The notes beneath the pieces are model-generated. The model did not search any database. It was not told the origin of the DNA and worked only from the letters and a program-made list of their open reading frames with translations. Shown here piece after piece: positions 4,655 to 52,600 of a stretch of DNA of 64,000 nt (positions are counted from its first letter, which is position 1; every line of letters begins with the position of its first letter). This DNA comes from Amphibalanus amphitrite (Eukaryota; Arthropoda; Thecostraca; Balanomorpha; Balanidae). A program made the position numbers and the translations under genes. The stretch spans positions 23,655 to 87,654 of the forward strand of contig NW_024883433.1 of the NCBI RefSeq assembly GCF_019059575.1, written 5' to 3'.

Positions 4655-6378
4655 GTTTGCAGCATGTAGCCAGGCCTTTTCCGGTCAGGTCATGACCTTC
4701 AGCTTAGGTCAAACTGCCAAATTGACCTTTTAAGGTCAAATTACAATTCATTCAATGCGTCTTCAGGAGAAGAAGACGATGCCGGTAAAGTTATCGTAAT
4801 ACAAGTTTAATGTTTAACCTGGCCGGGCCCGGGGGGTAATCCCAACCACCGCAGCCCGGGGGGGCGTTTTTCGCCCCCCTGTCTAACTTCGTAAATAAGG
4901 GAGCTACGGAAACAAAAGCGATACCAAATGAAAGGTCCTTACGAGACGATTCTAAAACACCTAAAATTTTTGACCTCAGGTCAATTTTCAAGTTCAGAGG
5001 TCAAGGTCAAAGGCAAAAACCGGCACATGTGTAGTGATCTCAAAGTAAGCCTTTTAGAGGACGGCAGGTTGCATCAAACCGTCAAAATTGGGTGTCAAAC
5101 GAAAGAAGAGAATCTGAGGATTCCGAAAATGTGCTCAAAATTAAAAGTCAAGGTCAAGGTCACGCTCAAAATTGACCTCAAACTTGGCACTTTTTCGCAC
5201 ATCTTGCGTGCTAACTTTCAAGATGTTTTGAAATGTTTTGAGGCTTATCAGTTCCCTATTTGTGGTTCATCTTACGATACAAGGCTGCTCAAAGGTCAAG
5301 GTCACAGTAGAGTATCCCTGCTAGAGGCTATTTCACTGATTCAAGTTAGTGATAATAAATAAGACAATTTTGCCATCCGGAAGCTCTAAATGAAGGCTTA
5401 GAGGGAAGTAGATGCCAGATTCGTGATCAGCGGGTACAAATCCATCATAAACGACCTTTCATGTGTCAAGGTCAACCAGAGGTCATTCGAGGTCACATGA
5501 GGTCAACATAAAACTTGACCTTTTCCGAACAAAATATACATCATTCGACGCGGCTTGACAAGGTGAATGCGATGGTTACCACTGCCGTAGCTCTAGGACC
5601 ATTTTTGTCGAAGTTATTTGCGAAAAACTAAAACAACATTTCGGGGTCGTTGGCCTGACCTCTGACCTCAGGTCACCAAAACTATTTTTCTATTTTTCTC
5701 TAGGTCACACGCTACACAACCGTGCTCGTAATTTGTCTTTATCTTTAAAACTCTATTTTTAGCAGCTCTTTGAAGTTCGCGTCTGTGACGCCGAAGTTTG
5801 CCGTGCAGGGGTCTAGAAAAATGGACCTTGTGACGTCATCAAGGGGGTTATGTCCAAATTTTTTACTTTAGAAGTTGTCAAATTGATGGGAGAAAAGGTA
5901 CTGAAAGTTTCGCTTTCCTATCCCTAAGCGTTCGGGAGCTATCGCAAATATTCGCCAGGGGGGGGGGGGGGGCGAAAAGCCCCGGGCCCGCGAGGGTTAA
6001 AGTTATGGCATAAAAGCATTTTCCGCAAAAACGTTAATGTTAAGAGCTGCTGTCCTCTGTAGGCGAAACTATTCAACATAGATTAAATCTGAGAAGACTT
6101 TTAAGAAAGAACTTTAAAAGATCTGTCGAATACGCTTAGTCTGCCACGCTGTAGCTTCATTTGTTCTCCGATTCATTAAAAAGTGTTGAAATAGGTGAAA
6201 ATTGATCATTCATGATCTCTGTTGTCCTGACCTTTGACCTAATCTAAAAAAGTGGGAGATACCTTCTTCGTGATTTTGACGCTCTTTTGAACCCCTCTTA
6301 CCGTGCCATTTGATTGCTACGTTACTACGTGGCCCATAAGCCGAGTTAGACAGGGGTGTTCAGGCCCTCCCTCGACCC
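4655..6378 (+). mobile_element. Old, interrupted copy of TTAA family C
   Basis: The stretch 4655-4813 followed by 6001-6378 matches, in order and orientation, the copy at 27457-28143. Shared landmarks are the CCGGTCAGGTCATGACCTT block, the GATGCCGGTAAA block, the GACGCTGTAGCT block, the TGACCTTTGACCT block and the TACGTGGCCCA-GAGCCGAGTTAG block near the right end. The two halves are separated by the family D element at 4814-6000. The ends are degraded, so the outer limits are approximate. It contains a perfect DR1 hexamer pair at 6228-6240. Confidence 0.7.
4814..6000 (+). mobile_element. TTAA-flanked non-autonomous element, family D
   Basis: The element is bounded by TTAA at 4814-4817 and 5997-6000. 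The left end reads CCTGGCCGGGCCCGGGG after TTAA. The right end, read inward on the other strand, begins CCCTCGCGGGCCCGGGG, so the inverted ends are imperfect but clearly related. Just inside each end is a hairpin made from a G-run and a C-run with a short loop (GGGGGGGCG...CGCCCCCC near 4858-4882; a G-run then CGAAAAGCCCC near 5957-5982). The interior is rich in AGGTCA/TGACCT. TTAA target sites and ends starting CC are typical of piggyBac-type transposition; no transposase is present. The 144-codon open frame at 4928-5362 is low-complexity and probably not a gene. Confidence 0.65.
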
Positions 6379-6553
6379 GGTGAAGCGCTGGAGAATGCGT
6401 ATGGTTATTGTGGGATATTGCAACAGAGTGCGTTCCGGACAAGGCTGCATCCATTCTATATAGACGATGATTCTGTGCGAAATTCTCGAAAATATTCGTT
6501 TTTGGGTTCCGACAGACTGAGGCAGACATATTTGTTAAAAGTAATACTTAATA

Positions 6554-6830
6554 GCCATTTTCACGACGGGCTATCCGGCGAATGCACCTGATTTGACCAA
6601 ATCTGCACCTAATTTCTTTTACAGCAAATATCTTCATTTTATTAATTTATTTCAGTGTTTTAATCGATGATGCTCTCTGATAATATGACAAAGCAGGCAT
6701 ATAAGCAATTAGTGCAACCCTAGCTGATAGCTGCTAAGAGACACAGTGAACCTGATTTGACCAAATCTGCACCTAATCTGTACTGCAGATGTGCACCAAA
6801 TGTGTACCAGATGGCCGTCGTGAAAACGGC
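6554..6830. mobile_element. TA-flanked MITE, 277 bp
   Basis: Inverted ends GCCATTTTCACGACGG on the left and the complement of GCCGTTTTCACGACGG on the right differ at one base. Both are flanked by TA (6552-6553 and 6831-6832), the target duplication of Tc1/mariner-like transposons. Inside, a block reading CTGATTTGACCAAATCTGCA occurs twice (about 6590 and 6750). No coding capacity. Class is inferred only from size, ends and target site. Confidence 0.65.
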
Positions 6831-6888
6831 TAATATCTACATTTTAGCGCATTCGAAGTGAGCATAGAGCGTATCTAATGTTATGAAG

Positions 6889-22600: not shown

Positions 22601-23514
22601 AAAATAATCCAGGATCACTTGTTTCAATTCGCAATGGTTCTGCTTCGGGAATACTCTGTGATTTCTCATTCCAATTCATAGTCTTGTCAGTGGTACATTT
22701 TGACATGAAACCATATAAAAAAATATGATTTCAAAGGTCACGTATGACGAGATCCACTCGGATCAGGGACATCTGTTATCGGTTTGTCGTGTGATCCGAT
22801 GGTGTCATAGATCCGTAACTTGTCGCTTGTTTTGAGCCATCCATTGAGATCACAGATCCATCGCTCAGATCCATGCCTATGTCTGGTTAAAACCGCGGTT
22901 AAAACATCGATTTCGTGTACTGTAGACGCCATTTGCACTTGACTAATTTGGGAAGAATGATGAAGAAGCTGATCATGCATTTATTATAACTTATAATATA
23001 TAGGTCTGGACACTGCACTGATTCTCTCACCTTTGTATAGCAAAAACATGTTTTATACATTCGGCAAGTGACATACCACTCCCATTAGTTTGCTTTATCG
23101 TTCAGTGTTAGATTTGTTTGAAAAAGGACACAATAGACAGCCAACGATTTGTTTGCATGAATCGAATGTTAGTCCAGGCGTTCAAATTACTTTTTACGTT
23201 AAACTATTTCGGGCTATTGAACTGACTGACTAGTGACTGCCCCGTCTCGTAAGAGGTTAGTGAATGAGGATAATCTTTCTATAGGAAAGCAATTAGCAAA
23301 TATGCATAAATCACATAAGCATTCCGTTAGAAATAGATAGAATGTAAAACAAGGTCAACTCAGCACTACGAGTACTCTCTGCCACCTGATTCTACCTGAT
23401 TGATCTGAGTCACCTGGTCCTGTGGGCTGTGACTAACTTGCAGGGACTCTTTGGAGCGTTTGCAAGGATACATGTGGTTGTGCTGCCGATGAGCTCCTCC
23501 GTCCTGACACCCAC
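19639..23514 (-). other. nautilus intron 1
   Basis: This 3.9-kb intron has donor GTGGGT at 23514 and acceptor CAG ending at 19639. It splits the bHLH domain exactly between the basic region and helix 1. It contains a GC-rich, CpG-rich patch at about 21860-22090 that could be regulatory, and the GATC-rich cluster at 22434-22872. I see no other gene in it. Confidence 0.75.
22434..22872. repeat. GATC-rich degenerate repeat cluster
   Basis: By eye 17 GATC tetramers occur in about 440 bases, where chance predicts under two. Most read (A/G)GATCC(A/T) or GGATCA. Phrases such as GAGATCCATTGGGATCATAG recur in degraded form, so this looks like an old tandem repeat of a GATC-bearing unit. Confidence 0.7.
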
Positions 23515-23898
23515 CTTTTTGAGCCGGCGTCGCTCGCGCATTGTGGCCGCCTTCCTACGGTCTATGGTCACCGATTTGCGCTTGCACGCCTTGCACGCCC
23601 AGGGCAGGCAGCGCCGCTGGCCGTGGCCGTGCGTGTGCGGCGCCAGCACGTGCGGCACGTGCTCGTCGTGCTCGGCGTGGCCGTCGTGCTCGCCGTGCTC
23701 CTCCTCGCTGAAGGCGTGCGGGTAGTCGGACTGGTCGGGGCTGAACGGTGCCGCCGTGCTGTCCGGGCCGGCGCGGAAGGCCGGGTACGGCTGGCCGTAG
23801 CCGGGGCTGCCGGCGCCGTCCCGCAGCGGGCCGTAGCCGGCCGAGAGCGGCGGGTAGGTGCCCTCCGGGAAGCGGCAGCTGCGCATGTCCATCACCAT
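23515..23898 (-). CDS. nau: nautilus/MyoD, first coding exon (N-terminus and basic region)
   Basis: Minus-strand exon of 128 codons. ATG at 23898 opens the frame; ATGs at 23892 and 23886 (codons 3 and 5) are alternatives. Residues 1-65 are Pro/Gly/Tyr-rich. Residues 67-93 form a His/Glu/Asp-rich stretch (about ten His). Residues 97-107 are [11 protein letters not shown] and 108-128 the basic region ending RERRRLKK. The Cys/His segment [12 protein letters not shown] plus [13 protein letters not shown] is diagnostic of MyoD-family myogenic factors, and SVTID before it resembles arthropod forms. The Ala-Thr pair in the basic region, required for muscle specificity in this family, is present. Donor GTGGGT follows Lys128 in phase 0. 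The protein is a nuclear E-box-binding activator of muscle genes. Confidence 0.92.
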
Positions 23899-24180
23899 AC
23901 TGCCCGGCCGGCGGCCCGCACGCCCGACCTGACCGGCCGCTCACTGCCCCACCGCGCCCGCCGACGCCAAGACTGCACGACGCGACGGTAACGACGGGGT
24001 CTCTCACGAGGAACACCTCCGCGCCGCGCCGGTCGTTTGGGCTGCGGGTTCACACGCCCGAAAGGCCGCCGGAGATGAGGACACGCCCACCTCCGGCGGC
24101 AGCCAATGAGAGACCGGGGAGGAGGCGGCGGGGCGGAGCCAAACGCTCGAGAGACGAGATGATACTGAGAGGCGATGGGA
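23899..24180 (-). promoter_or_regulatory. GC-rich upstream region and possible promoter of nautilus
   Basis: Immediately upstream of the nautilus ATG the DNA is GC- and CpG-rich. It has a CCAAT-box-like GCCAAT on the plus strand at about 24102-24107 and GC boxes (GGCGGGGCGG) near 24128-24137. No TATA box is evident on the minus strand. The transcription start is not determined. Confidence 0.3.
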
Positions 24181-24714: not shown

Positions 24715-25642
24715 TTAACCCGGCAGTTGCTGGGGTATTTCGCCACCCACCGTTTGCTGGGGGGGGGGGGGGGCGTTAAACGCCCCCAGCCGATAACTCG
24801 AGAACCAATAGGCGCAGCGAAACGCACGAGGCGGCAAACGAAAGAACGCGACGAGACGCTTCAGATGAGTACTTTAAAGTTGAATTTTGAGGTCACAGGT
24901 CAGGTCAAGGTCAGGTCAAACACCTGAAATCGGGCTTTCAGTGGCATGGACTTCAGGACTTCGCAATGGGCGGCTCTCGTCATAAACTCCGTCAAAACGG
25001 TGCACAATCCATCATATAAGGCCTACAAGAGTGTCAGCTCCATGTAGGGGTCAGTCAAGCATAGGTCAGGGTCAAGGTCAGGTCAACCGGGTAGGCACAT
25101 ATCCCCGAAAATCAAAACTGATATTCGCAGCCTGTGACACATGTTTTATGGGTAATTTGGGGCGTAGAACACGATGGTGACATTCATTTTGTCATATGTG
25201 TACGTGTTTGGCTCAAAAAGTTCAATTTAAGAAATGCATGTATCATGGTTACGAAGTAGTCACGAGAAATTGCCAAGATTCAGTTCAAGATTTTGGAAAA
25301 TGCGAATTGATAATCAATAATCGAAGATAGCCATTTGATTGTTCATGGTATTGGCAGTCTAATGGCGTTTACGGCATGTCTGTATGTCTATTCTGTGATT
25401 TTATATGATTTTTTGAACATATGCCGTTTTTGGTCGAAAACTCAGAAATCATGACGTCATTAAAACCTCGATATCTCAAAAATTTTCCGACCGATTTTTT
25501 TGAAACTTTCTCACAATACACTTCAATTAATTCCCTACAGGTACCCAAAATTTGGCGCGCCTGCGGCGCACTGTTTTTATGCTATGGCCCGGCGAAAAAA
25601 GTGGGGGCGTTTAACGCCCCCCCCCAGCAACTCGCGGGTTAA
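24715..25642 (+). mobile_element. TTAA-flanked non-autonomous element, family B (complete copy)
   Basis: TTAA at 24715-24718 and 25639-25642. The left end is CCCGGCAGTTGCTGGGG; the right end read inward is CCCGCGAGTTGCTGGGG, two differences over 17 bases. Subterminal hairpins at both ends consist of a G-run, CG, a short loop, then CGCCCC(C). The interior starts with an AACTCGAGAACCAATAGGCG block and carries many AGGTCA hexamers near 24890-25090. A second copy is at 30874 and an inverted copy surrounds 25891-26773. No transposase; the open frames inside are repeat translation. Confidence 0.75.
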
Positions 25643-25807: not shown

Positions 25808-26968
25808 CACTCACACATGTAGGGGATTGATCGCATCCAGTTTCGCAGTTTTGACAGCGTTTATGACGAGAGGCGCCAAGTGCGAGGGTTTTAACCCTCG
25901 CATAAGGTTGGATGGACCCCCCCCCATGGTTTTTCGCGAATAACTCGCGTAAAAAGCGGCTGATCGCGACGAAACTTTTAGTACCCTCGAGTTGATCAAT
26001 TTTACACCTACTCTGAAAATTTCATGACCCTGACCCAAGTGACCTTTGACCTGTGTGTGACCTATTTCTCGAACCCATGTGTTGCCGGAATCGCGATTCG
26101 GCGCGGTCGGCTCACATAAGTCGCACGAGCTTCTCGTGGTTTCAAACGTTCAAACATGTGATTTGATGTTGCTTCAATGCATTTGGATGGATGTCAAGGT
26201 CACCTGAAGGTCAGGTCAGGTCATTGACCTTTGGTGACCTCGGTTCACTTTTTCAAGCTATGCATGTTTCTAGGCTAGTTTTTTTTTTAGCTGAATTCGA
26301 ATTAAGAAACTATTTGAACATTTACGAAGTAGTTTTAATGCCTTCGTAACATGTTACGAAGCTGCCAGAGGCGGTTGACACGTACTACGAATACTCGTCA
26401 CGACCCCTACTGGTTGACCTGACCTGACCTGACCCGACCTGGTCTAAATACTTAAAGACATCATCTGTGATCAAAACTAACACCATATTCGTGATCAGCA
26501 CCCCAAAAACCCCCTTAGCAGCCACATTTTACGACTTTCTATCAGGTCCTGATTTTCCCGACTTTGGGTCATTGACCTGACCTGGAAGGTCAACCAATGA
26601 CCTAGGACCTTAAAATTAGGTATCATCGGCTTCCTTTGTTACGGGCAACACGCTCGTTTTATCCGCGAAGCTCTAGCTCAATCAGGGGCCAAACGGCAAG
26701 GGGGTCCAACCGACCCCCCCCCCCCCCCCTACACCTTAGAAGCTGGCAAACGCCGCACACATGCGAGGGTTAAACTTCATGCTACTGAAAGCCAAATTTC
26801 AGGTGTTATACCTGACCTTGACCCGATTTATGATCTAAAATTCAACTTTCAAATACTTAGGTATCTGAAGCGTCTCGTCGTGTTCTTTCGTCTGCCTCCT
26901 TGTGTGTTTCGCTTGTGGCGTTTAACGCCCCCCCCCCCCCCAAGCAAATGGCGGGTGGCGGGTTTTAG
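25808..26968 (-). mobile_element. Inverted family B copy, split by a family A insertion
   Basis: Sequence 25808-25890 joined to 26774-26968 corresponds, in reverse orientation, to the left part of the family B copy at 24715-25642. Shared blocks, read on the minus strand, are the G-run GCGTTAAACGCC hairpin, the GAACACGACGAGACGCTTCAG block, the CAGGTATAACACCTGAAAT block, and TCGTCATAAACGCTGTCAAAA upstream of the insertion. The terminus near 26968 is eroded (GGGTTTTA instead of GGGTTAA). The left part is truncated or very diverged. Confidence 0.65.
25891..26773 (+). mobile_element. TTAA-flanked non-autonomous element, family A (copy 1)
   Basis: TTAA at 25891-25894 and 26770-26773. The right end read inward is CCCTCGCATGTGTG; the left end begins CCCTCGCAT and has then lost most of the G-run. 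It is closely similar over its length to 50650-51546: the CGCGAATAACTCGCGTAAAA block, the TGATCAATTTTACACCTA block, the TTCGTAACATGTTACGAAGC palindrome and the right C-run. A perfect DR1 (TGACCTTTGACCT) is at 26040-26052. It sits inside an inverted family B copy. Confidence 0.8.
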
Positions 26969-27456: not shown

Positions 27457-28143
27457 TTAACCCGAGCCCTGCTGGGGGGGTGTTTGAACATGTTTGTGGT
27501 TTTTTCGCGAATATCTAAAAAAAACATGTTTGAACATCGACTGATATGCAGCATGACCCTTTCCGGTCAGGTCATGACCTTGACCTGAGGTCAAATTTTC
27601 AAGTTGACCTTTCAAGGTCAAGTTATAGTTCATTCGATGCGTCTTGACGAGAGGAACACGATGCCGGTAAAAGTAAGCTCGTACAAGGCTTGGGTCAAAA
27701 GTTATTGTAGAAAAACTGTTTCCGAAAAAATAGGCTATTTTTGCAGTTTTTGCCCCCTGCGGCCTGCAGGCAAAACCGTTGACGTTAGGTCAAATCTGAG
27801 AGAATTATTCAGAAAGGGCGTTAATAGGGCTATCGAATGCGCTTTTCTGCGACGCTGTAGCTCTATTGGTTCCCGAGTTATGCGTTGGTTTCCTGAAAAT
27901 TGTCGACATTCGACTTGAAAATCGGCGAAATTTTGCCTTCAATGACCTCTGGTGACCTGACCTTTGACCTGACCAAAAAAGTGACCGAAGTGATTTCGTC
28001 ATTATTTTTGGCGCTCTTTCGAACGCCGCCTTCCGCGTATCGCTACGTGGCCCAGGAGCCGAGTTAGAAGGGGGGGGGGTGTTCAAACACCCCCCCCCCA
28101 GCAGGGCGTGGAAATCCAGGACCCCCAGCCGGGCGCGGGTTAA
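27457..28143 (+). mobile_element. TTAA-flanked non-autonomous element, family C (complete copy)
   Basis: TTAA at 27457-27460 and 28140-28143. The left end is CCCGAGCCCTGCTGGGGG; the right end read inward is CCCGCGCCCGGCTGGGGG. Near the right end a G-run, GTGTTCAAACAC and a C-run form a strong hairpin (about 28069-28099). Near the left end, GGGGGGGTGTTTGAACA is the matching half. The interior is dense in AGGTCA/TGACCT, with a perfect DR1 at 27958-27970. It serves as the uninterrupted reference for the split copy at 4655-6378. Confidence 0.75.
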
Positions 28144-30873: not shown

Positions 30874-31641
30874 TTAACCCTGCAGTTGCTGGGGTATTTC
30901 CCCATCCGCCGTTTGCCGGGGGGGGGGGGGCGTTCAACGCCCCCAGGCGATAACTCGCGAACAAATAGGCGCAGCGAAACGCACGAGGCGCGGCAAACGA
31001 AAGAAGAACGCGACGAGACGATTCACATGAACTTTAAAGTTGAATTTCGAGGTCACAGGTCGGGTCAAGGTCAGGTCAAACACTTGAAATCGAGCTTTCA
31101 GCAGCATGGACTTTAGAACCTCGCAATCGGTGCCTCGCGTTTCGCGTTTCGATTATATCGTCATCAGTTGGTCCTAAATAAATTCAGTCATCAGTTGGTC
31201 CTATCCTATACAATCTGTCACAACTGTCACAACTGTCACAACCCTTCATATAAGTGCTAAAAGAGTGTCAGATCAATGTAGGGGTCAGTCAAACATAGGC
31301 CACTGGCCAGGGTCAAAGTCAGGTCAATCAGGTAAGCACATAACCCCGAAAATTAAAACTGGTACCTTTTCGCAGCCCATGCATGACACATGTTTTATGG
31401 GTACTTTTGGGCGTAAAATACGATGGTGACATTCATTTTATCTACGAGTACGTAGCTGGTTGAAAAAAGATCAATTTCAGAAATGCATGCATCATGGTCG
31501 TGAAGTAGTTACGAGAAATTGCCAACATTCAGTTCAAGATTTTGGAAAATGTAGAACGATGATCAAAAACCATAGATAGCCATTTGATTTGCCATGGTAT
31601 TGGCAGTGTAATGGCGTTTACAGCATGTCTGTATGTCTGCT
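30874..31641 (+). mobile_element. TTAA family B, 3'-truncated copy
   Basis: It begins with TTAA at 30874-30877 and CCCTGCAGTTGCTGGGG. It follows the 24715 copy closely: the G-run/C-run hairpin, the CAAATAGGCGCAGCGAAACG block, the AGGTCA cluster, and the CATGGTATTGGCAGTGTAATG block near the end. Similarity stops at about 31641, where tandem repeats begin, so the right third is missing. Small internal tandem repeats are present (CATCAGTTGGTCCTA twice, CACAACTGT about three times near 31160-31245). Confidence 0.7.
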
Positions 31642-31650
31642 CTGTCGGTG

Positions 31651-31709
31651 GATATCCATATCCATACTCAAGGATATCCATACACGTTTGCACGATATCC
31701 ATACTCCAG
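31651..31709. repeat. GATATCCATAC short tandem repeat
   Basis: About four imperfect copies of (G)GATATCCATAC, separated by short spacers, directly at the breakpoint of the truncated family B copy. Confidence 0.65.
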
Positions 31710-31746
31710 GTGCAGGGGCGAGCAGTTACTTCTTACGAGGGGTGCG

Positions 31747-31991
31747 GAGTCGAAGTCAGAGTCGGAGTCAGAGTCGGAGTCGGAGTCAGAGTCGCCCAGA
31801 GTCGTGGCAACGAGCCAGGAGTCGGAGTCGGAGTCGGGGTCGGTCAGGAGCCCGCAGTGGAAGTCGGAGTCGGTCCGAATCGGAACAGCTCCATCACGAC
31901 TCCGAAACACTGGCAGGGGTCCGGAGTCGGAGACAGAGTCGGCCGGAGTCATGGCAACGAGTCAGGAGTCGGAGTCGTAGTCGGAGTCGGA
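31747..31991. repeat. AGTCGG/AGTCAG hexanucleotide satellite
   Basis: Runs of GGAGTC and AGTCAG-type hexamers, interrupted by short non-repeat blocks, form a 245-base degenerate satellite. Because the unit is six bases it stays open in several frames on both strands, giving Ser-Arg, Glu-Ser or Asp-Ser dipeptide translations. I do not regard these as genes. Confidence 0.8.
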
Positions 31992-33025
31992 TTTGGCGCC
32001 ACCATGACTCCGCAACCCTGCTTCTTGCCATCATTTATTAGGATAAGCGATTGCAAGACTGACGAGCCGACCTGGTGCCAACGAAGCGACGGGTAGGTAC
32101 GCCTCGGGAGATGAAGCTTCACGGACGATTTTGCGCACAAGTGCGCAGTCTGCTTTTACGTTCCTCTTACGCAGAATTGAACAGAGATTTATTCTGCCAA
32201 AAAGCTCAATGGAGGTCGATGGAGAACTTTTTGTATGTCCAATGAAACATACACGTAATTTTGCAAATATTGCTGTGGTGACACTGCAAACAGAATGCAA
32301 TGCCGTTCCTGATTTTGAACACGCATGGGAAAAAGAGTCACTCCACTCGATAGCCAACATAACAAGGATTATTTTGATATATAATAATCCAGTTTTACAA
32401 CGTCATGGAGGTACTCCACATGCTATCACCAGCGCGGTTGTTTAAACCTTTGACGGCGCACCAAAAAAGCCACTATCAGAAACTCCCGATTCCACGTACG
32501 ATAATGGAGACTAAATGCGCAACTAAATAATTTTTTCTGCCCAATTCAAAACATTTGATCAATTTCCAACAGAATGACACCCCAAATATACATATATTCC
32601 GAAATTGCCCACGGCCATCCGTGAGGCCGTTTCCAACCATAGTGCGTTGTGAGTCTTACACGACCGTTACGCACACTGGGAGCTGACGGTGATAACTGAT
32701 ATGAGGGCTCGGCTGGTGGACCCCAGCGGCGCCGGTGTCCGCCTGGGGCGGTGGATGGGGTCAAGGGAGGCTGATACGAGCACAACCTCTGGCCGGCCCT
32801 CCATTGTTTTGACGCGGTTTTCAGGTAGGTAACCAGCGCCTCGCCCTCCACCATACTTTCCTACAGAAGTTTTACTTTTACCGCTGGCGCTGACGTGGGA
32901 TTATGCTATACAGCATATCGGATCTTTCTTTGATGATATCTATACTTACAGTACGAGTCCAATCATGACCTGACCGCTAGTCGCTAGGGCCCTCAAACTG
33001 AGCAGAGCAGATCGTCGATCCGCCG
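31992..33025. other. Spacer left of the first LTR element
   Basis: It contains the second arm of the dispersed inverted repeat (32612-32645). Otherwise no gene or RNA is recognised. Confidence 0.5.
32612..32645 (-). repeat. Dispersed inverted repeat, arm 2
   Basis: Reverse complement of the block at 30421-30456, matching for about 34 bases. Confidence 0.65.
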
Positions 33026-33220: not shown

Positions 33221-33249
33221 CGGTGAACGTGTGCGCCGCGCGGTGATTA

Positions 33250-34140
33250 GTGGCAAGGGAAGCAGTGATAGCGTCAGTGAGCCGGGCGCCCGAGTTTGAT
33301 GCGGCAGTGGAGTCGTTCGGCGCGTACAGCAGGCGTCTCGAACAGCACTTTGTCGCCAACAGCGTCGGTGAAGATGAAGTCGAGAAGCGCCGCGCCATAC
33401 TGCTCAGCGCGGTTGGCGCCAGCACCTTCAGCCTCCTGGAGGACCTCATAGCCCCAGCCGCAGTGGGAGACAAAACGTTCAAGGAGCTTGTGAAGATATT
33501 GGTCGATCACTTTGAACCGCAACAATCTGCAATTGTCTCCAGATTTCGGTTTCACTCCTGCACTCGCGATGCTGGAGAGTCAGTGTCTTCGTTTTCGGCG
33601 AGGCTCCGCAAGCTTGCGAAGCCCTGCAAGTTTCAGCCAGGCCAGCTGGACGAGATGCTTCGTGACCGACTGGTTTGCGGTATTCAGCATGAGCGGCTGC
33701 AATCACGTCTGCTGAGCGAGCCGCGGCTGACTCTGGACACGGCTCTGGAGATCGCTCAGGCCCACGAGTCGGCAGCAGCCAGTGCAGCCGAGCTCAGCGG
33801 CCGCTCCGAGTCGTCTGCCGTCATCGGACGGGTCGATGGGACACCACGGAGGATGGTGAACGACAGCCGACCAGCCCTGGTGAACGACAGCCGGCGAGCA
33901 CTGGTGAACGACAATCGGCGTCCCCTGGACACCGGCGGGGCTGCCTCCCGCGCTCCGCCGGCGCGGGGTGCCTGCAGCCGCTGTCTCAGCCGACGGCACG
34001 TCCCGGCGGCCTGCCCCTTCCGCTCGCAGAACTGTTATGCGTGCGGAGCCGTGGGCCACACCAGAGCGGCCTGCGGAGCCGCGCCGGGTCTCAGCGTGTC
34101 CGGCTGCTGGAGGAGGAGGAGCAGCCGGAGCCGTCCGTGA
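33250..34140 (+). pseudogene. Retrotransposon 1 gag (no ATG)
   Basis: Open for about 296 codons. It contains the capsid-like region (AILLSAVGASTFSLLEDL, then a VSRFRFHSC segment) and two CCHC zinc knuckles near the end (CSRCLSRRHVPAAC and CYACGAVGHTRAAC, both CX2CX4HX4C) for RNA binding. The frame begins with GTG where the homologous start of retrotransposon 2 has ATG, and the next in-frame ATG lies far inside at about 33655. Thus either a non-AUG start is used or the start codon has been lost. A triple NDSR-type repeat at about residues 202-221 is specific to this copy. It ends in an overlap of about 100 bases with the pol frame. Confidence 0.85.
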
Positions 34141-35168
34141 CGCCTGGGACTTCTCAGAGTGGCGCGGCGCCCCACAATGACGGTGAGGACGAGCCATATT
34201 ACTTGTTCCGTGCTCAAGGGGTGCAGTTGGGAGTAGATCGTAAACCACCACTAATGGTTGATGTATGTGTGGACGGCTGCCCGCTGCGTATGGAGTTAGA
34301 TACGGGAGCTGCATTGTCTGTTTGCTCAGAGAAAGTGTTCAAGGGTACTTGGCCGGTCGGTGGGCCCCATCTTAGGCCATGTGACAAACTGTTGAAAACT
34401 TACAGCGGTGAGGTGTTAGGGGTGTGTGGTCAGGCGATGGTGGATGTTCAGTATGGCGGGCAGCGAGCACAGCTGCCGCTGGTGGTAGTTAAGGGCGAGG
34501 GACCATTTCTTTTTGGTCGAAACTGGCTGTCGACCATACGACTGGACTGGCCCTCCATATGTCAGCTTACCGACCGCTCTCGGGCTCAGACGCTCGTTCA
34601 TGAGTTTTCTGAAGTTTTCAGCGATGGTTTGGGGTGCTATCGTGGCGCTGAGGTGACCATTTCGGTGGATCCCGATGTGAAGCCGAGATTCTTCAAAGCT
34701 CGCACAGTCCCACTGGCATTCCGCGAGCAGGTGGATGCCGAGCTGGAGAAACAGATCCAGCAAGGACTGTGGGAGCCGGTGGAGCACAGTAAGTGGGCCG
34801 CCCCCCTAGTCGTCGTGCCAAAACCAGGGGGAAAGATCAGGTTATGTGGGGACTATCGCCTCACGGTCAACAGGGTGGCCAAGGTGGACCAATATCCGCT
34901 TCCACGCGTGGAAGAGCTGCTAACACGCTTAACGGGCAGTAAGGTCTTTTCAAAGATAGACCTTAAGTCCGCGTACAACCAGATGGTTCTCGATCAGAGT
35001 TCACGTGACTTTCTGACCGTAAACACCCAGAGGGGATTGCTGAGACCCACGAGACTTAGCTTCGGGTACGCTTCAGCCCCGTCCCTGTTCCAGAGAACCA
35101 TGGACACGCTGCTAGCGGGGATACAGGGTGTGTGTGTGTTCCTCGATGATGTTGTCGTGGCGGGTTAG
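34041..35168 (+). pseudogene. Retrotransposon 1 pol, part 1: protease and reverse transcriptase
   Basis: This segment is in the -1 frame relative to gag with a 100-base overlap. That arrangement could be programmed frameshifting, or a lesion, since retrotransposon 2 has gag and pol fused in one frame. It contains the aspartic protease (LDTGAALSVC, then LFGRNWL) and the reverse transcriptase fingers and palm: WAAPLVVVPK, GDYRLTVN, SKIDLKSAYNQM, FGYASAPSLFQ and catalytic FLDD. A TAG at 35166-35168, seven codons after FLDD, ends the frame in the middle of the reverse transcriptase domain. Confidence 0.9.
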
Positions 35169-35573
35169 ACTGTGGAAAGTCATGATGTAGCGCTGCGTGA
35201 GGTGTTGCGCCGGCTGCGTGAGGCGGGTCTCAGGGCGAACCGGGACAAGTGCTGTTTGGGCGTGGACAGCGTAACGTACCTGGGTCACAAGGTCAGCGGG
35301 AGCGGCGTGGAGACGACTGAGGAAAAGGTCGCTGCCATCACGGGCGCGCCAGAGCCCCGAGATGTCTCCGAGCTGCGGTGCTGGCTCGGCCTTATCAATT
35401 ACTACGGAAAATTTTTGCAGGGTTTGGCCACCACCCTTTCGCCGCTCTATGTTCTGTTACGGAAAAATCGCCCTTGGCGGTGGACGCACATTGAAAGGAG
35501 AGCTTTTGAGGATGCGAAACGTTTGCTCAAAAGCCCTCCCGTTTTGGGACATTTGACCCAAAACTCCCTGTGA
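35169..35573 (+). pseudogene. Retrotransposon 1 pol, part 2: reverse transcriptase C-terminus
   Basis: Continues in the same frame directly after the TAG. It carries the thumb and connection region: KCCLGVDSVTYLGHKVS, then WLGLINYYGKFLQGL and LYVLLRKNRPWRW. Just past the VLGH that precedes RNase H the frame runs into TGA. Homology resumes in another frame, so a one-base loss lies near 35550 in a short T-run. Confidence 0.9.
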
Positions 35574-37378
35574 TTTTGGCATGTGACGCCAGTCCAGTGG
35601 GATTGGGGTGCATTCTTAGCCAGCAAACGAGGCAAGGGGAGAGACCGATCGCGTTTTATTCGCGCTCTTTAAACGAGACTGAAAGGCGCTACTCCCAGAC
35701 CGACCGGGAGGGTTTGGCGGTGGTGGCCGGTGTAAAGAGGTTCCACTATTATCTGGCGGGCCGTCCGTTTTCAATACGGACCGATCATAAGCCCCTGCTG
35801 GGGCTGATAGGTGAGTCCAAGCCGCTCCCACTGATGGCATCGCCCCGGGTGGTCAGGTGGGCCCTTATGCTGGGAGCGTATGATTATCGCCTTGAATTCG
35901 TTCCCGGCGTTAAACAAACTCACTGTGACGCGCTCAGTCGGCTGCCCGTCCCGTCGTCGGTGGTCGGTCAGTCGAGCCCCGTTCCGGCGGAGACGATACA
36001 TTTGATGGAGTTTTTAGACGCGTCTCCGGTCACTGTGGACCACATTCGCCGGTGGACCTCTAGAGACCCTGTCTTGGCTGTCGTGCTTCAGTATATTCAG
36101 GAGGGCTGGCCGGATGACGGGGAGGTGCTGTCGCCAGATTTCCGACCTTTTAGGTCCCGTAAAGCCGAGCTGAGCATTCAGGATGGATGTATATTGTGGG
36201 GTTCGCGCGTTGTGATACCGCCACAGGGAAGGGCAAAAATTTTGAGTCTTCTACACGACGGGCACTGCGGAGAGACGCGCACCAAGTCTTTCGCAAGAAT
36301 GTATGTGTGGTGGCCTAACCTTGATCAGGACATCACATCCATTGCACAGAATTGTGGCAAATGTCAGGCTTATCGTGCCAACGTACCTGAGACTCCGCTG
36401 CACCCATGGATTTGGCCATCAAAACCATGGGAGCGTGTGCACGTAGATTATTGTGGTCCAATTGATGGCTGGTGGGTATTAATTGTCATTGACGCTCATT
36501 CAAAGTGGATGGACGTGTTTCCGTCGCGATCATGCACGTCCGAGACCACCATAGAACATTTGCGCGCTTCATTTTCCTCGTGGGGGCTGCCAAAGACTCT
36601 TGTGTCTGACAACGCACAATGTTTCTTGTCTGAGACTTTTCAGACGTTCTGTCGCTCGAATGGCATTCATCATTTGACTTCTCCTGCACTGTCTCCGAAA
36701 TCTAACGGGTTGGCGGAGCGTAGTGTTCAGACATTGAAAAACAGCATTAAAAAGCATACATCAGGCACGATTCACACCAAAATAGCGCGTTTTCTGCTGC
36801 GCTATCGCACAACGCCGCACACAACCACCCAGGTGTCCCCAGCGGCATTATTCCTTGGCAGGACGGTGCGAACCCCGCTGGATCTGGTCAGGCCTGATCT
36901 GAGTGGTAGAGTGAGGAAAAACCAGGACAAACAAAAACAGTACGCCGACAGGGGCTCCTATGAACGTTCCGTGTGCGTAGGCGATGCTGTGTTTGTGTCA
37001 GCCGTTGATCGTGTACAAAGTGCTGCTGGTTGTAAATGGCTGCCGGGTGTGATAGTGGTGCGGAAGGGAGTAAAACTGGCTGTTCAGTTGCAGGATGGGA
37101 GAGTGATCTGGAGGCATCTGGATCGGGTCCGGCCGCGCCGGACTGTGGCCGACGTACCGCCGCCGACCGCTGGACGGGCGCTGGACCTGGATCGGACGCG
37201 GCGGGACCTGTTTGATGCCGACGTACCGTCGAGGGCCGGACTGACGGCTCGGGCGGTGGCCCCGGCTGCTCCGGACGGGTCACCGTCGGTCCCGGCGGGC
37301 GGACCGCCGCCGGCACCGCGTTACAATCTGCGTCCGCGAGAGACGTTACGGCGGCCGGACCGGCTGTTGTGTGAGTGA
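35570..37378 (+). pseudogene. Retrotransposon 1 pol, part 3: RNase H and integrase
   Basis: A 602-codon open frame. It begins in RNase H (LACDASPVGLG; later DREGLAVVAGVKRFHYYLAG and TDHKPLLGL). The integrase follows, with an HHCC zinc domain (LLHDGHCGET ... NCGKCQ) and catalytic D-D-E (residues 293, 347 and 383 of this segment, the last two 35 apart). Its tail is Pro/Arg-rich and ends in RYNLRPR-type sequence, common at Ty3/gypsy integrase ends. It is intact on its own but cannot be made from the gag start without crossing the upstream breaks. Confidence 0.92.
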
Positions 37379-41638: not shown

Positions 41639-41791
41639 TGATATGTATAACTGTGCGGGGTCGTCTACGCAGCGCTGGGGGGCGCCGGGCGGGTGTGAGC
41701 GTGGTGAGTCGGGGAATAGAGCTCGGAACTGAAAGGTGTGTTTTGTCGGCTGTGAGGCCGGCCGGGCTGGTGGTGATCTACGGACAGATCA
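41639..41791 (+). repeat. 5' LTR of retrotransposon 2
   Basis: 153 bp, TGATATGTA...CAGATCA, identical to 45991-46143. Confidence 0.96.
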
Positions 41792-41793
41792 AG

Positions 41794-41804
41794 TGGCGAC
41801 GAGG
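41794..41804 (+). other. Primer-binding site, tRNA-Ser(GCU)
   Basis: TGGCGACGAGG, two bases after the LTR; the same 11-base complement of the tRNA-Ser(GCU) 3' end as in retrotransposon 1. Confidence 0.8.
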
Positions 41805-41848
41805 CTGAGACCGTTCTCGCCTTGCCTGTGACCGGTGGTGGAACCACC

Positions 41849-44800
41849 ATGGCGTCGGCCCTTATCGGGAGCGTCGGTGAGTACGGCGACGACGGCTCGG
41901 ACTTTAACGAGTACCTAGAGCGTTTTGAGCAGTTTTTGGCTGCTAATGCGATCTCGTCAGCGACAAGGAAACGTGCGGTGTTTCTGAGCGTCTGTGGTCC
42001 CAAAGTGTATTCAACTCTGCGCAGCATTTTCGCGCCTGATCTGCCAGCCACGAAAACTTTCGAAGAGTTGGCGGAGGCAGCGCAGCGGCATTTCGCTCCG
42101 AGACCGGCTATAATTGTGTCACGGTACCGGTTCAACCGTACCACGCAGCAAGCCGGACAAACAGTTGGAGCGTTTTTGGCAGAGCTGCGGCGCATTGCCA
42201 GAGACTGTGCCTACGGAGACCGCCTAACTGAGCAGCTTCGGGACCGGTTCGTGTGTGGGATAAGTAACCCGGGAATGCTGAAGCGGCTACTGCAGGAAGG
42301 TGACAATCTGTCGCTCGAACTGGCTGTCAAGATAGCGACTGCGATGGAGACAGCAGCCGCTGACCTGCAGGATATCGCCTCATCGGCAGCCCCGCTGGCA
42401 GGCACAGCAGTGACCGGCCCGGACCCGCTGCACGCAGTCTCCGCTGTCGCGCCTGCCGCTGCCGCGGGGCCAGCCGCGGGAGGGCTGAGGCGACGACCCC
42501 GCGCATTTCATACACGCACACGCCGGCCGGCCGAGACGGCGGCCAGTGCTGGCAGCTTGCCAAGTGATTCAGCCGGTGGTTTACCGTGCAGCCGCTGTGG
42601 CAGGCGTAGTCACCAGGCCGAGGAGTGTCCCCATAGGCGTGCGACGTGCTACGGCTGTGGCAAAGTGGGCCATCTCAGGAACGTCTGCCGAGCGGTACAC
42701 ACGGTACTGGCAGACGACACGGAGCCGGATGGCGACATGTATCAAGTAAACGCCACAAATACTCCACACCGGGTTCCTGCCTACAGGACGACGGTGGATG
42801 TCAATGGAAGGCCGCTTGTGTTCGAGGTCGACACTGGAGCGAGCCGAACGATCATCAGCGAATCTGTGTGGCGCTCAGAGCTGAAGAGCACCCCTCTGGA
42901 GCCGGGTCAAGTGGCGCTAACCACTTACACTGGAGATGCACTGCCGGTGCGCGGTCAGCTGACTGCACACGTCTCGTGCGGCGGCCAGCAGACCACACTG
43001 ACTCTGCTCGTGGTTCGGGGTGACGGCCCGTCACTTCTCGGCCGGGACTGGCTGGCCAAGCTGCGGCTACCGTGGAACGACATATTCAGTATCGCAGCAC
43101 CCCTGTGGGATCTGCAGCAGCAGTACAGGGCGCTGTTCCAGGACGACGGTGGCACCTGCAAGCAGACTGTGAGTTTGGATATCGATCCGTCGGTCTCGCC
43201 CAAGTTTTACAAGCCTCGGCCCGTCCCTCTTGCGCTGCAACCGCTGGTGAATGCGGAGCTGGACAAACAGATCGAACGGGGAATTCTACGACCCGTTAAG
43301 ACAGCGGAGTGGGCAGCGCCGGTCGTCACAGTGCTAAAGAATGACAAGAGTTCGGTGCGTATGTGCGGTAGCTATGATCTTACCGTTAACAAAGCCTCAC
43401 GGGTGGAGCAGTATCCGCTCCCTCGAATCGACGAGCTGCTTACAAAGTTGGCCGGAGGCCAAAAGTTCACGCGCCTGGATCTCAAGGAAGCGTACCTGTT
43501 GGTGCCCCTGGATGAACAAAGTCAGCGCTACACCGATATCAACACTCACCGAGGCCTGATGGCAGCCACACGCCTGGTCTATGGAATAGCATCAGCTCCA
43601 GCGGCGTTCCAGCGCATGATGGAGCAGCTGCTGGCCGGCTTGCCGCACGTGGCCGTGTTCCTCGATGATGTGTGCATCACGGGCCGCAACGATACGGAGC
43701 ACCGGCGCAATGTGGACGCGGTGCTGCGGCGTCTGCTAGACGCTGGTCTACGGCTCAACCCGAGCAAGTGTCAGTGGATGGCCAAGGAAGTGGAGTACCT
43801 GGGGTACCGGGTGGATTGTAATGGCATCCACCCCACAGCAGCCAAAGTGACGGCGATCGTGGAGGCACCGCGACCGGCGAACGTAAAACAGCTGAAGGCG
43901 TATCTCGGCCTGCTCATGTATTATTCAAAGTTCATGAACAATCTGGCCTCCGTGGCGGCGCCGCTCTACCGCCTCCTGAAGACGGGTCAGCCGTGGCGCT
44001 GGGGCCGGGCGGAGGACACGGCGTTCGCTCGCACCAAACAGCTGCTGGTGCAAGCGCCCTGCCTCGCTCACTATGACGGGACCCTGCCGCTCGTGCTGTC
44101 GGTGGATGCCAGCCCCTACGGGCTCGGGGCAGTGCTGTCCGAAGTGGACTGTTCCGGAATGGAACGGCCAGTGGCGTATGCATCGCGGAGCCTGGCAGCA
44201 GCAGAAACCAACTACAGTCAACTGGACAAAGAAGGACTGGCGGTGGTCTTTGGAGTAAAAAAGTTTCACCAGTTCTTGTGCGGTCGGCACTTCACTGTGC
44301 AGACGGACCACAAACCTCTCCTGGGTCTGCTAAGCAGCGACAAGCCTCTGCCGCTGATGGTATCGCCCAGGGTGGCCAGGTGGCGACTCGCGCTGCAAGC
44401 GTACCAGTACAAGCTGGTGTACGCCCCCTCGGCACGGCAGGCTCACAGCGACGGACTGAGCCGCCTGCCCCTGGCAGTGTGCCCTGCTAGTGTTCTAGAC
44501 CCCGGGGACATTGTCTGTCTTCTTGAGTCGGTGGACCAGATGATCCGCATCGAGCAGATCCGTCGACGCACGAACTGTGACCCCGTTTTGTCGCGCGCAT
44601 ATCAGGCGGTGATGAACGGTCGTTGGACGGAGCCAGTGGATGAGGAACTTCAACCGTTCTATCGGCGTCGCCTCGAACTCAGTGCTCAAAATGGAGTGGT
44701 CCTGTGGGGTAACAGAATCGTGTTGCCCACGGCCCTTCGGAAGCAGTGGCTCTCGCTTCTGCACGAAGGCCACCCTGGAGTGGTGGCCATGAAAGCAAAG

Positions 44801-45835
44801 GCTCGCGCCCACGCGTGGTGGCCGGGCATGGACGCAGCTATCGAGTCGACGGTTGAGAGCTGTCAGGCCTGTCAGCTGAGCCGGCCGCGGGCACCTCCGG
44901 TGTCTGAGAGTCCGTGGCCGTACCCGGATGCGCCCTGGGACCGCCTGCACATGGACTATGCGGGGCCAGTCCATGGGATGATGATCCTGGTCATCGTGGA
45001 CGCTCACTCGAAGTGGATCTCAGCGTACCTGACACCGTCGGCTACAGCAGAAGCGACCATTGAGCGGTTGCGGATGGCGTTTGCGGAGCACGGTGTCCCT
45101 CGCGTGGTGGTGAGCGATAACGCGGCGGTGTTCACGGGAGAGGCTTTGCGTCATTTTCTAGCGCGTAATGGAGTGCAGCAGGTGTTCTCCCCGCCTCTCC
45201 ACCCCAAGTCGAACGGGCAAGGAGAAAGCGCCGTAAAGGTGATCAAAACGGGGCTTCAGAAGCGGACTGATGGATCGCTGCAAACGCGTCTGAGCCGCGT
45301 TCTGTTCCATTACCGGACGACACCCCATTCAGCAACGGGAGTGACGCCCGCGGAGCTGCTCCATGGGCGCCCGCTGGTCACTCACCTGGCGCGGCTGCAG
45401 CCGGACCGCGCCCTGCTCGACCGTGTCCGAGCCAATCAGGAACGCCAAACGCTGGCCAACAACCGCCATTCGGTTGCAGTGCGACAGTTTGCGCCCGGTG
45501 ATCTGGTTTATGTGTCAGCAGTGGATCAGAGGCCCTGGCAACCGGCCGTGGTGGCATCTGTCTCCGGCAGTCAGTGTGATGTGAGGCTGCCGGATGGCCG
45601 TGTGTTCAGACGGCATCTGGATCACCTGCGAGCTCGGTCGGCCGAAGGCTCGCCGGTGGAAAGGGAGGTGTTGCCGGTTCCGGATTGTTCTACGTCACTG
45701 TCTGAGAGCGTCGCTGGTCGAGCGAGTGCTGATCGTGAGGGTGGCGGTGGTGTTGGATCCCCCAGCTCACCCTCAGTGAGTGTGAGACGCTCACACCGCG
45801 AGCGAAGGGTGCCGCTTCGGCTGCTCGAGACGTAA
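41849..45835 (+). CDS. Retrotransposon 2 gag-pol polyprotein, 1328 aa
   Basis: One uninterrupted frame from ATG in a strong context (ACCACCATGG) to TAA. Gag capsid-like region lies about residues 1-200, then an Ala/Pro-rich linker. Two CCHC zinc knuckles are at 247-260 and 267-280. Aspartic protease DTG is at 328-330. The reverse transcriptase has catalytic FLDD at 604-607. RNase H has its first Asp at 753 (SVDASPYGLG). The integrase zinc domain has His at 972 and Cys at 1005 and 1008, and catalytic D1036, D1090 and E1126, the last two with the classic 35-residue gap. The C-terminus is Ser/Arg-rich. A single fused gag-pol without a frameshift differs from many relatives, so a Gag excess must arise some other way. 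All motifs appear intact. Confidence 0.96.
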   Translation: MASALIGSVGEYGDDGSDFNEYLERFEQFLAANAISSATRKRAVFLSVCGPKVYSTLRSIFAPDLPATKTFEELAEAAQRHFAPRPAIIVSRYRFNRTTQQAGQTVGAFLAELRRIARDCAYGDRLTEQLRDRFVCGISNPGMLKRLLQEGDNLSLELAVKIATAMETAAADLQDIASSAAPLAGTAVTGPDPLHAVSAVAPAAAAGPAAGGLRRRPRAFHTRTRRPAETAASAGSLPSDSAGGLPCSRCGRRSHQAEECPHRRATCYGCGKVGHLRNVCRAVHTVLADDTEPDGDMYQVNATNTPHRVPAYRTTVDVNGRPLVFEVDTGASRTIISESVWRSELKSTPLEPGQVALTTYTGDALPVRGQLTAHVSCGGQQTTLTLLVVRGDGPSLLGRDWLAKLRLPWNDIFSIAAPLWDLQQQYRALFQDDGGTCKQTVSLDIDPSVSPKFYKPRPVPLALQPLVNAELDKQIERGILRPVKTAEWAAPVVTVLKNDKSSVRMCGSYDLTVNKASRVEQYPLPRIDELLTKLAGGQKFTRLDLKEAYLLVPLDEQSQRYTDINTHRGLMAATRLVYGIASAPAAFQRMMEQLLAGLPHVAVFLDDVCITGRNDTEHRRNVDAVLRRLLDAGLRLNPSKCQWMAKEVEYLGYRVDCNGIHPTAAKVTAIVEAPRPANVKQLKAYLGLLMYYSKFMNNLASVAAPLYRLLKTGQPWRWGRAEDTAFARTKQLLVQAPCLAHYDGTLPLVLSVDASPYGLGAVLSEVDCSGMERPVAYASRSLAAAETNYSQLDKEGLAVVFGVKKFHQFLCGRHFTVQTDHKPLLGLLSSDKPLPLMVSPRVARWRLALQAYQYKLVYAPSARQAHSDGLSRLPLAVCPASVLDPGDIVCLLESVDQMIRIEQIRRRTNCDPVLSRAYQAVMNGRWTEPVDEELQPFYRRRLELSAQNGVVLWGNRIVLPTALRKQWLSLLHEGHPGVVAMKAKARAHAWWPGMDAAIESTVESCQACQLSRPRAPPVSESPWPYPDAPWDRLHMDYAGPVHGMMILVIVDAHSKWISAYLTPSATAEATIERLRMAFAEHGVPRVVVSDNAAVFTGEALRHFLARNGVQQVFSPPLHPKSNGQGESAVKVIKTGLQKRTDGSLQTRLSRVLFHYRTTPHSATGVTPAELLHGRPLVTHLARLQPDRALLDRVRANQERQTLANNRHSVAVRQFAPGDLVYVSAVDQRPWQPAVVASVSGSQCDVRLPDGRVFRRHLDHLRARSAEGSPVEREVLPVPDCSTSLSESVAGRASADREGGGGVGSPSSPSVSVRRSHRERRVPLRLLET

Positions 45836-50019: not shown

Positions 50020-50458
50020 GTGAGTGCCGTACCGCGTCTAACGAGCAAGGCAGAAACGTGTGTGGGTGTAACGCTGTTCGTTCATCTAATAATGGCACCT
50101 CAGATGTGTTCAGTGTTGCAGCGTGTACTATCCATGTGGAAGTTCCATGCTTAACAACGCAGCGCCAGTACAGCGGCAGAACAAAGGCAGTAGATCGTCA
50201 TGGTTAGAGCTGCAATCCTAACTCCTCTTGCATCAAGTTCCTTGCACCCCAAGGCTGCTTTGGCGTGTTTAGCCAAATGATCTACATTTTTATGCTCGGT
50301 ATGCATTGTTGCGAGTGATTCCGATGGCAGTGCAATGGAAAATTTGGGCTGTGCATTACTTTAGTATCTATGTGAGACACAATTATTGTTATTTTTTACC
50401 CTTGCTGATGTGACAAGTTAATTGCGTAGGTTTACAGACAGCTGGATGACAGGCATTT

Positions 50459-52600
50459 TTCAAGTTCAAGTTCAAGTTCATTTATACACGTTAAATTCAC
50501 ATAAATGCGACTTTTCATTAACGCAATGTCAAGTGATTAAAAAAGGGCACGATGTCACAGTCACACCACATGTTCATTATCACAGTGAATCGGCATACGG
50601 TCAACGTCTTCACGTCTGAGTTTGGAGCAAGTGAACTTTTACAGCTCTCTTAACCCTCGCATGTGTAGGGGGGGGGGGTCGGATGGACCCCCCCCATGGT
50701 TTTTCGCGAATAACTCGCGTAAAAAGCGGCCGATCGCGACGAAACTTTCAGTACCCTCTCATTGATCAATTTTACACCTACCCTGAAAATTTCATGACCC
50801 TGACCCAAATGACCTTTGACCTGTGACCTCTTTTCCGAGACCATGTTTGGCCGGAATCGCGATTTCGCGTATGTCGGCTCGCACTAGCCGCGTGTTTGCA
50901 AGCTTTTCGTGGTTTCAAACGTTCAAACATGTGATTTGATGTTACTCCCGTGTGTGTCAAGGTCACCTGAAGGTCAGGTCAGGTCATTGACCTTTGGTGA
51001 CCTCGGGTGACCTCGGGTCACTTTTTCGAGTTTTACATGTTTCTAGGCTAGTTTTTGGAGCTGAATTCGAATTTAGCAACCATTTGAACATTTACGAAGT
51101 AGTTTTGGTGACTTCGTAACATGTTACGAAGCTGTCAGAGGCGGTTGACACGTACTACGAATACCCGTCACGACGCCTACTGGTTGACCTGACCTGACCT
51201 GACCCGACCTGGTCTAAATGCTTCAAGACATCATCTGTGATCAAAACTAACACGATATTCGTGATCAGCACCCCGAAAAACCCCTAAGCGGCCACACTTT
51301 ACGACTTTCTAACAGGTTCCGATTTTCCCGACTTTGGGTCATTGACCTGACCTGGAAGGTCAACCAATGACCTAGGACCTTAAAATTGGGTATCATCGGC
51401 TTCCTCTCGTCACGGGCAACACGCTCGTTTTTTCCGCGAAGCTCTATCTCGATCAGGGGCCAAACGGCAAGGGGGGGGTCCAACCGACCCCCCCCCCCCC
51501 CCTACACATTAGAAGCTGGCAAACGCCGCACACATGCGAGGGTTAAATGTCATTCGCCCGTCATAAACTGCAGTGAACGCGTTGTATGCGTCCACACCAC
51601 TATACAGCAGCTGCCTTCGCCCCGTCTCAGTATGTATCCACGGTAATCGCAGTCTCTGTGCGTTGCGGGTGTCATGTCCGTGGTCTGTCGCGTTTTCAAG
51701 CTTGCACGCGATAGCAGAAGGCTGACCCGTCTGAACGATGATTCGCACGTTGCATATTCTGTGGTACAGGACTAAGTTTGTAGCGCTGAGCCACTTCAGC
51801 TCATCCAAGACATCGCTCACATGGCAATACTTCCGCCGGCCACTTAAACGCGTGCACAAAAATTCAACACTTTTTGTACCCGGTGAAGCTCAGTGGTGCT
51901 GCATGTCCCGTAAATAGATATGCAGTAGCGCAGTGCAGACAATACGAGAGAGGACACGATCGGTATCAGCGTGGACGGCGGTAACACGTTCTTCGTGTTG
52001 TTGCGCCAATAGCGATCCCGTGCCCTTTGACACGACTGGACACGACATAGCTGACAATTGACATGGCCATGATACGTCAGATGTCTGTCAATAACGAGGC
52101 CGATATTTTTGACAGATTCGGGCTCGTGAACAGTTGCATTGGCGAAGCGAATGCTACCAGAAGGCAGTCCTTTCAGCATCTGACGTGTTCCGAGTACAAT
52201 CCACGTTACAATCCACGAGTTTTTGACGCGTTCACTTTCATGTTGTTTGAGCAAAACCTTGCAAACATTCTCGTCTAGAGTCCGCTCCATTCTCAGGATT
52301 AAGCCAGCTAAGTCAGCCTTTTTACCAGATACTAAGATCTGAGTGTCATCGGCAAACTGTACGATCGGGACATCAGGGACGTGGAGACACAGATTGTTTG
52401 CGAATATGGAGAACAGCAGACAGCTGAGAGATCCCCTTGGAAAGCTTCGGATTCTATTGACAAAGACTTTGAAAGAATGACAGACCTGTCAGCTTAGCGC
52501 AATGAGCTCTAATCTGCGGAGAATTACCTTGGAGATAGTGCCTGAACCATACCGTGTCTTTTTCATGATTAATCAAATCGAAGCATCTTATTTCTGAGCT
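50459..52600 (-). mobile_element. 5'-truncated non-LTR retrotransposon (LINE), broken, interrupted
   Basis: On the minus strand the sequence encodes the C-terminal half of a LINE reverse transcriptase. There is a region near 52540-52590 resembling motif FDLINH...WFRHYL, then the catalytic FADD at 52356-52345 (QFADDTQILVSG). The thumb follows, with the conserved run VLSALRYCISIYGTCS (about 51880-51930) and the family tail LNFCARV. There is at least one stop (about 52460) and a frameshift near 51850, so it is dead. The 3' end is a CTTGAA-type tail, three to four units at 50459-50480, as in Jockey/CR1-group elements. The MITE at 50650-51546 splits its 3' part. Its 5' end is lost near 52600. Confidence 0.8.
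50650..51546 (+). mobile_element. TTAA-flanked non-autonomous element, family A (copy 2, best preserved)
   Basis: TTAA at 50650-50653 and 51543-51546, with inverted ends CCCTCGCATGTGT exact for 13 bases. Just inside each end a G-run and C-run pair around a short spacer (GGGGGTCGGATGGACCCCC on the left; GGGGGTCCAACCGACCCCC on the right). The interior carries about 17 AGGTCA/TGACCT hexamers in under 900 bases by my count, including a perfect DR1 at 50810-50822 and runs of overlapping TGACC units near 51185 and 50970. No coding capacity. It is inserted in the LINE. Confidence 0.85.

Follow-up and report, generated by a model that had tools for sequence, protein, structure and literature searches.

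The window analyzed here, 64,000 nt of the genome of Amphibalanus amphitrite (assembly GCF_019059575.1, contig NW_024883433.1, positions 23,655 to 87,654), contains TTAA-bounded elements of four families, which we call A, B, C, and D. They are probably non-autonomous transposons of the piggyBac superfamily with bipartite, asymmetric ends, whose palindromes may serve as docking sites for a transposase. We assign a probability of about 0.8 to this interpretation; membership in the superfamily is not proven. The two ends of each full-length element differ, one being short and the other long: a run of G starts at bp 14 or 15 in the short end and at bp 41 in the long end. Positions are counted from the base after TTAA, and the short end of one element (A1) was assigned by its likeness to another (A2). 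An earlier reading of this DNA, the original prediction, had proposed four families of piggyBac-type TTAA elements with a single architecture, and our results support this; the asymmetry of the two ends had been missed.

TTAA elements and the register of their ends

The DNA was inspected directly, compared with itself, and scanned for all TTAA sites; all copies come from this window. The elements named in the original prediction are present where it had placed them and are bounded by TTAA. Five are full-length: A1 (25891..26773, plus strand), A2 (50650..51546, plus), B1 (24715..25642, minus), C1 (27457..28143, plus), and D (4814..6000, minus); the others are partial copies. All five start with TTAACC, finish with GGTTAA, and have TTAA on both flanks, and the first bases after TTAA are CCC or CCT at every one of the 11 retained element ends. 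For example, A2 has TTAACCC/GGGTTAA ends and a 13-bp terminal inverted repeat (TIR), CCCTCGCATGTGT. Sizes range from 687 to 1187 bp, above those of many miniature inverted-repeat transposable elements (MITEs). The elements are MITE-like: short, with TIRs and without coding capacity. No Pfam match above the curated cutoff was found in five of their open reading frames (ORFs; one each of D, B1, and A2, and two of C1). A match of a C1 ORF to DUF2913, below the cutoff (E 0.07), was treated as chance.

Two elements lie inside copies of other families. D is inserted at a TTAA of a C copy whose own ends are not intact (4655..6378, plus), and A1 at a TTAA in an inverted, end-truncated B copy (25808..26968, plus); in both cases TTAA is kept on both sides. 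When the flanks of D are joined with a single TTAA they align to C1, gapless at the junction. Those of A1, joined in the same way, align to both B1 and B2, except for a gap of one base adjoining the junction. The long end of this inverted B copy keeps G14-CGTTAAACG and has lost its tip. B2 (30874..31645, minus) is the left part of an element, with its long (left) end as the sole end present. In the self-comparison, A1 and A2 are 88.3% identical, and B2 matches B1 in pieces with 82.7–87.8% identity. Imperfect short tandem repeats, seen in self-matches and ORFs, occupy 31700-32000, right past the break point of B2.

The G-runs start at very regular positions. At four of the five short ends the start is bp 15 (A2) or bp 14 (B1, C1, and D); the G-run of the A1 short end is lost. 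At the long ends it is bp 41 in all six cases that can be measured (A1, A2, B1, B2, C1, and D), and the seventh long end, that of the inverted B copy, is outside this count with its lost tip. Four of these six long ends (B1, B2, C1, and D) have an additional GGGG at bp 14, without a strong palindrome, and B1, B2, and C1 share GCTGGGG at bp 11–17. The short end is on the left and the long end on the right in A2 and C1; the order is the opposite in B1 and D. The offset between the two ends, 14 or 15 against 41 by G-run start, corresponds to the shift of about 27–28 bp of piggyBac-like bipartite ends.

This register is found at element ends more often than chance would give. The window has 436 TTAA strand-sites, and a run of at least four G starts at bp 13–15 or 40–42 in only 11 of them, ten of which are element ends; the other one is at 57965 on the minus strand. 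The single retained element end outside the register is the left end of A1, where the G-run is lost. The tip motif is also repeated: when bp 5–13 of the short end are matched against the long end of the same element, with significance determined by shuffles, the best shift is 26 in A2 (7/9 matches, p 0.0044) and 27 in C1 (8/9 matches, p 0.0028). The same script, applied to piggyBac ends, gives a shift of 27 (7/9 matches, shuffle p 0.09) and palindrome centres at 25 and 53. The piggyBac palindrome is TGCGT..ACGCA, and its centres are fixed at these positions, unlike those of families A to D.

Palindromes behind the tips

A palindromic internal repeat, formed by a G-run, a short core, and a C-run, is found at both ends in A2, B1, and C1. 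In A2 it reads G11-TCGGATGGA-C8 at the short end (50668..50695, plus) and G15-TCGGTTGGA-C8 at the long end (51471..51502, minus); the A1 long end has G16-TCGGTTGGA-C5 (26700..26729, minus). In family B, the long and short ends of B1 have G15-CGTTAAACG-C5 (24759..24787, plus) and G9-CGTTAAACG-C5 (25603..25625, minus), and the long end of B2 has G13-CGTTCAACG-C5 (30918-30944). The long end of D has G7-CGTTTTTCG-C6 (4858..4879, plus), and its short end has G4-CTTTTCG-C15 (5958..5983, minus), which folds poorly. Hairpins had been described at both ends of the complete copies of B and D and of A2. The hairpin at the right end of D is weak: 140 of 200 shuffled sequences reach an equally good fold as single-stranded DNA.

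In C1, the long end has G10-TGTTTGAACA-C10 (28070..28099, minus) and the short end G7-TGTTTGAACA (27474..27490, plus). A strong hairpin had been attributed to the right end of family C only. The C-run is in fact lost at the left end, but the core TGTTTGAACA is kept, so this end is not without a palindrome. A second copy of TGTTTGAACA lies behind the short end, at 27527-27536, and forms a long inverted repeat with the first one.

The cores differ between families and remain palindromic. Core pairs were counted directly just inside the runs at 11 ends, leaving out the A1 short end, which has no G-run. The first two pairs are T-A and C-G in family A, C-G and G-C in families B and D, and T-A and G-C in family C. 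Two additional T-A pairs are found in the B and C cores and none in those of A and D. Both pairs are intact at 10 of the 11 ends; the second pair fails at the short end of D. The compensation between families for which the original prediction had proposed a check is present in the window copies, and this is the pattern that would be expected of a palindrome bound by a dimer.

Hairpin strength is less informative. Perfect arms reach at most 8 bp at 413 control TTAA sites, which have no CC after TTAA. At element ends they measure 10, 10, and 13 bp in three of 11 cases and 5–8 bp in the other eight, within the control range, so perfect arm length alone is weaker evidence than the register. Folding both ends as single-stranded DNA gave a divided result. 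Six of the 11 ends (both ends of A2 and C1, and the left ends of B1 and B2) beat nearly all shuffles, although the fold of the C1 left end relies on a different, longer inverted repeat. The other five (both ends of A1 and D, and the right end of B1) do not clearly do so, with z from −1.06 to −1.45 at A1 left, A1 right, B1 right, and D left. Hairpin folding was rejected as proof because of these five ends.

Element interiors and other features of the window

The interiors had been described as rich in AGGTCA. This is correct: the 6,184 element bases contain 82 copies, and the rest of the window 40, an 18.8-fold enrichment (pseudocount one). By eye, the copies form clusters, very roughly 140–205 bp apart, in the interiors of A2, B1, C1, and D. 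The word resembles a nuclear-receptor half-site. When AGGTCA-type words are masked, five of 16 interior comparisons score above all of 60 shuffles: A2 and C1 each against their own reverse, A2 against B1 and against D in reverse orientation, and C1 against D in direct orientation. The other 11 do not.

A possible shared module behind the ends was searched for by leaving one family out of each run, with seeds chosen by eye. For A, the best matches to the family left out have E 0.0012 and 0.0015; for B they have 0.51 and 1.1, and the best match has 0.0091 for C and 5.9e-6 for D. In the runs without C and without D, just one of the two seed modules of the family was recovered. Outside the elements, the best match has E 0.4 when A is left out, 3.7 when C is, and 3.2 when D is; with B left out, no such match is listed up to E 10. 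Families A, C, and D outscore anything outside the elements in their own runs, which weakly suggests a module of common sequence.

Patterns resembling the ends were also sought elsewhere. The long-end pattern has no match in viral contigs or prokaryote genomes, neither of which is a likely source of an animal element. Palindrome patterns gave 3 and 14 stretches in viral contigs. In all 17, TTAACC is absent from the 60 bases preceding the palindrome and GGTTAA from the 45 bases following it. Ten of the 14 stretches share one near-identical context, terminator-like by eye, with TTAACC after the palindrome and pointing away.

Other features of the window include an inverted-repeat element at 29180-30126, with 29-base ends that start with TAGGGGAAGGTGGGG and match at 96.6%; judged by eye, it may belong to the MITEs that duplicate TA. 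Two sets of Ty3/gypsy-like ORFs were recognized by eye at 33247-37378 and 41777-45835, the second one as a single open frame of 1352 amino acids. A myogenic basic domain, as in MyoD-like basic helix-loop-helix (bHLH) genes, is found at 23413-23940 on the minus strand (Pfam PF01586, E 4.9e-12). Together with the Ty3-like ORFs, this domain indicates an animal genome. Scans of the window with Rfam (gathering thresholds) and for tRNAs gave no hits.

Comparison with known systems and interpretation

The closest system is piggyBac of Trichoplusia ni (PMC7351741), which has TTAA, a CCC tip, asymmetric ends, and a palindromic internal repeat, with the short-end block repeated 27 bp further in at the long end: bp 34–63 of its right end (RE) are almost identical to bp 7–35 of its left end (LE). 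Cysteine-rich domains (CRDs) bind the 19-bp internal repeat as a dimer, the groove is narrowed near bp 25, and a second, inner dimer has been modelled. With the native transposase, only the asymmetric end pair both excises and integrates in cells (PMC7351741); the authors of the structure call these ends enigmatic. In contrast to families A to D, piggyBac carries a transposase gene, and its palindrome has no G/C-run arms. In piggyBat of Myotis lucifugus (PMC11707139), GCGGGA at bp 11–16 stands in front of an imperfect palindrome to which CRDs bind, much like the G-containing motif and palindrome of A to D, but the palindromes are on one end only, with three repeats and motifs 44 bp apart. MER85 is a human non-autonomous piggyBac element with TTAA and a 13-bp TIR, and a 16-bp imperfect palindrome immediately inside the 5' TIR is bound by PGBD3 (PMC3459987). 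It is only 140 bp long, binding is described at the 5' palindrome, and the sections concerned mention no G/C runs. Coral CMITEs are likewise families of TTAA MITEs with differing tips, of the CC[C/T]T type, and a common interior, but they are about 100 bp long, and the sections concerned describe no asymmetric palindromes (PMC2872659).

Hairpins near the ends had been considered undescribed for piggyBac-type elements. This claim fails, because subterminal palindromes were already described for piggyBac, piggyBat, and MER85. TTAA, the palindrome, and the 27-bp shift match the known piggyBac docking layout, which points away from a new kind of system. By analogy, the tip of about 13 bp after TTAA would be read by the transposase core, and the palindrome behind it would be bound by a dimer of two cysteine-rich C-terminal domains. 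In the short (LE-like) end the palindrome would directly follow the tip. In the long (RE-like) end the tip motif would be repeated about 27 bp inward, with the palindrome behind this repeat; two transposase dimers, an outer and an inner one, could then dock. The hairpin of the original prediction would work as a duplex palindrome, not extruded, and its suggestion of transposase recognition agrees with what the palindromes look like. The long G-runs would be mostly the result of slippage growth of a short GGGG motif.

Several results weigh against this interpretation. The lengths of the G-runs (4–16) and C-runs (0–15) vary independently, and palindrome centres shift with G-run length, from about 21 to 30 at short ends and from 52 to 61 at long ends. 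This displacement of about nine bases is at odds with strict spacing (for the C1 short end the core centre is 25.5, and the scan of the script chose 30.5). In piggyBac, 5 bp inserted in the RE reduce activity by about half (PMC7351741), so variable centres count against the proposed mechanism. The centres are not fixed, which weakens the claim of a docking geometry identical to that of piggyBac; strict phasing does not hold, unless the runs grew or shrank after insertion. The internal repeat is weak at the short end of D and lost at that of A1. The shift test is not significant alone in B1 (best shift 27, 6/9 matches, p 0.073) or D (a tie of 28 and 35, 6/9 matches, p 0.41). The compensated changes amount to only two pair positions varied in four families, which may not be independent. 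Finally, the Pfam search detected neither a transposase nor a remnant of one in the five ORFs.

This last result would also fit another TTAA-duplicating superfamily. Kolobok elements, for example, produce TTAA duplications, which by themselves are not diagnostic of piggyBac; in that case the resemblance to piggyBac ends would be convergence. The CC[C/T] tip, the 13-bp tip, the palindrome, and the 27-bp shift jointly match piggyBac, and we consider such an origin quite unlikely. The variable runs bring up another alternative, that the palindromes have no function, the G-tracts having arisen by slippage and the inverted repeats within the ends by duplication. Run lengths vary freely, and five of the 18 G/C runs of at least 8 in the window are outside the elements (49332, 56658, 57431, 57548, and 60046). 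However, start positions are fixed and cores are compensated in four families, and 9 of the 16 G-run/C-run sites on the plus strand are element-end palindromes, with one more inside the B2 end and six outside; this makes a lack of function very improbable.

The arms might also act as a G-quadruplex (G4), an extruded hairpin, or an R-loop that marks the ends for cutting, an idea modelled on Tetrahymena, where G-rich inverted repeats define the excision boundaries for a domesticated piggyBac protein and an A5G5 sequence about 45 bp from the boundary is bound by Lia3p (PMC6547420). Runs of up to 16 G are present, and G4-type motifs are found at D right, B1 left, A1 right, and A2 right. Nevertheless, G4 potential is limited to these four of the ten full-length-element ends and comes from single long runs, because a run of 15–16 G alone satisfies the motif. 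They are only 4 of the 14 G4-motif sites in the window. The Tetrahymena repeats sit in the flanks, outside the element (PMC6547420). The palindromic non-G cores are kept here, which a G4 does not need, and five ends do not clearly outdo shuffles in folding, as noted above. The G4 or R-loop role suggested in the original prediction receives no positive support, and a structural signal of this kind appears unlikely.

What may be new, within the piggyBac-type interpretation, is the combination of G-run/C-run arms and a register common to four diverged families; searches aimed at them, which covered open-licence papers, gave no description of either such arms or the bp 14/41 register for piggyBac MITEs. 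As a tentative idea, which we regard as doubtful, a diverse piggyBac lineage might keep the 14/41 docking register while the palindrome changes, and the G-tracts would belong to the recognition site. Several MITE families could then be moved, by register more than by sequence, by a single transposase that they share or by several whose cysteine-rich domains change fast. If our interpretation is true, the presence of the 27-bp register of piggyBac in four diverged families would point to a general rule of these transposons. Left and right ends could be assigned on copies without genes, and the natural palindrome variants would be useful in studies of site choice by the cysteine-rich domain.

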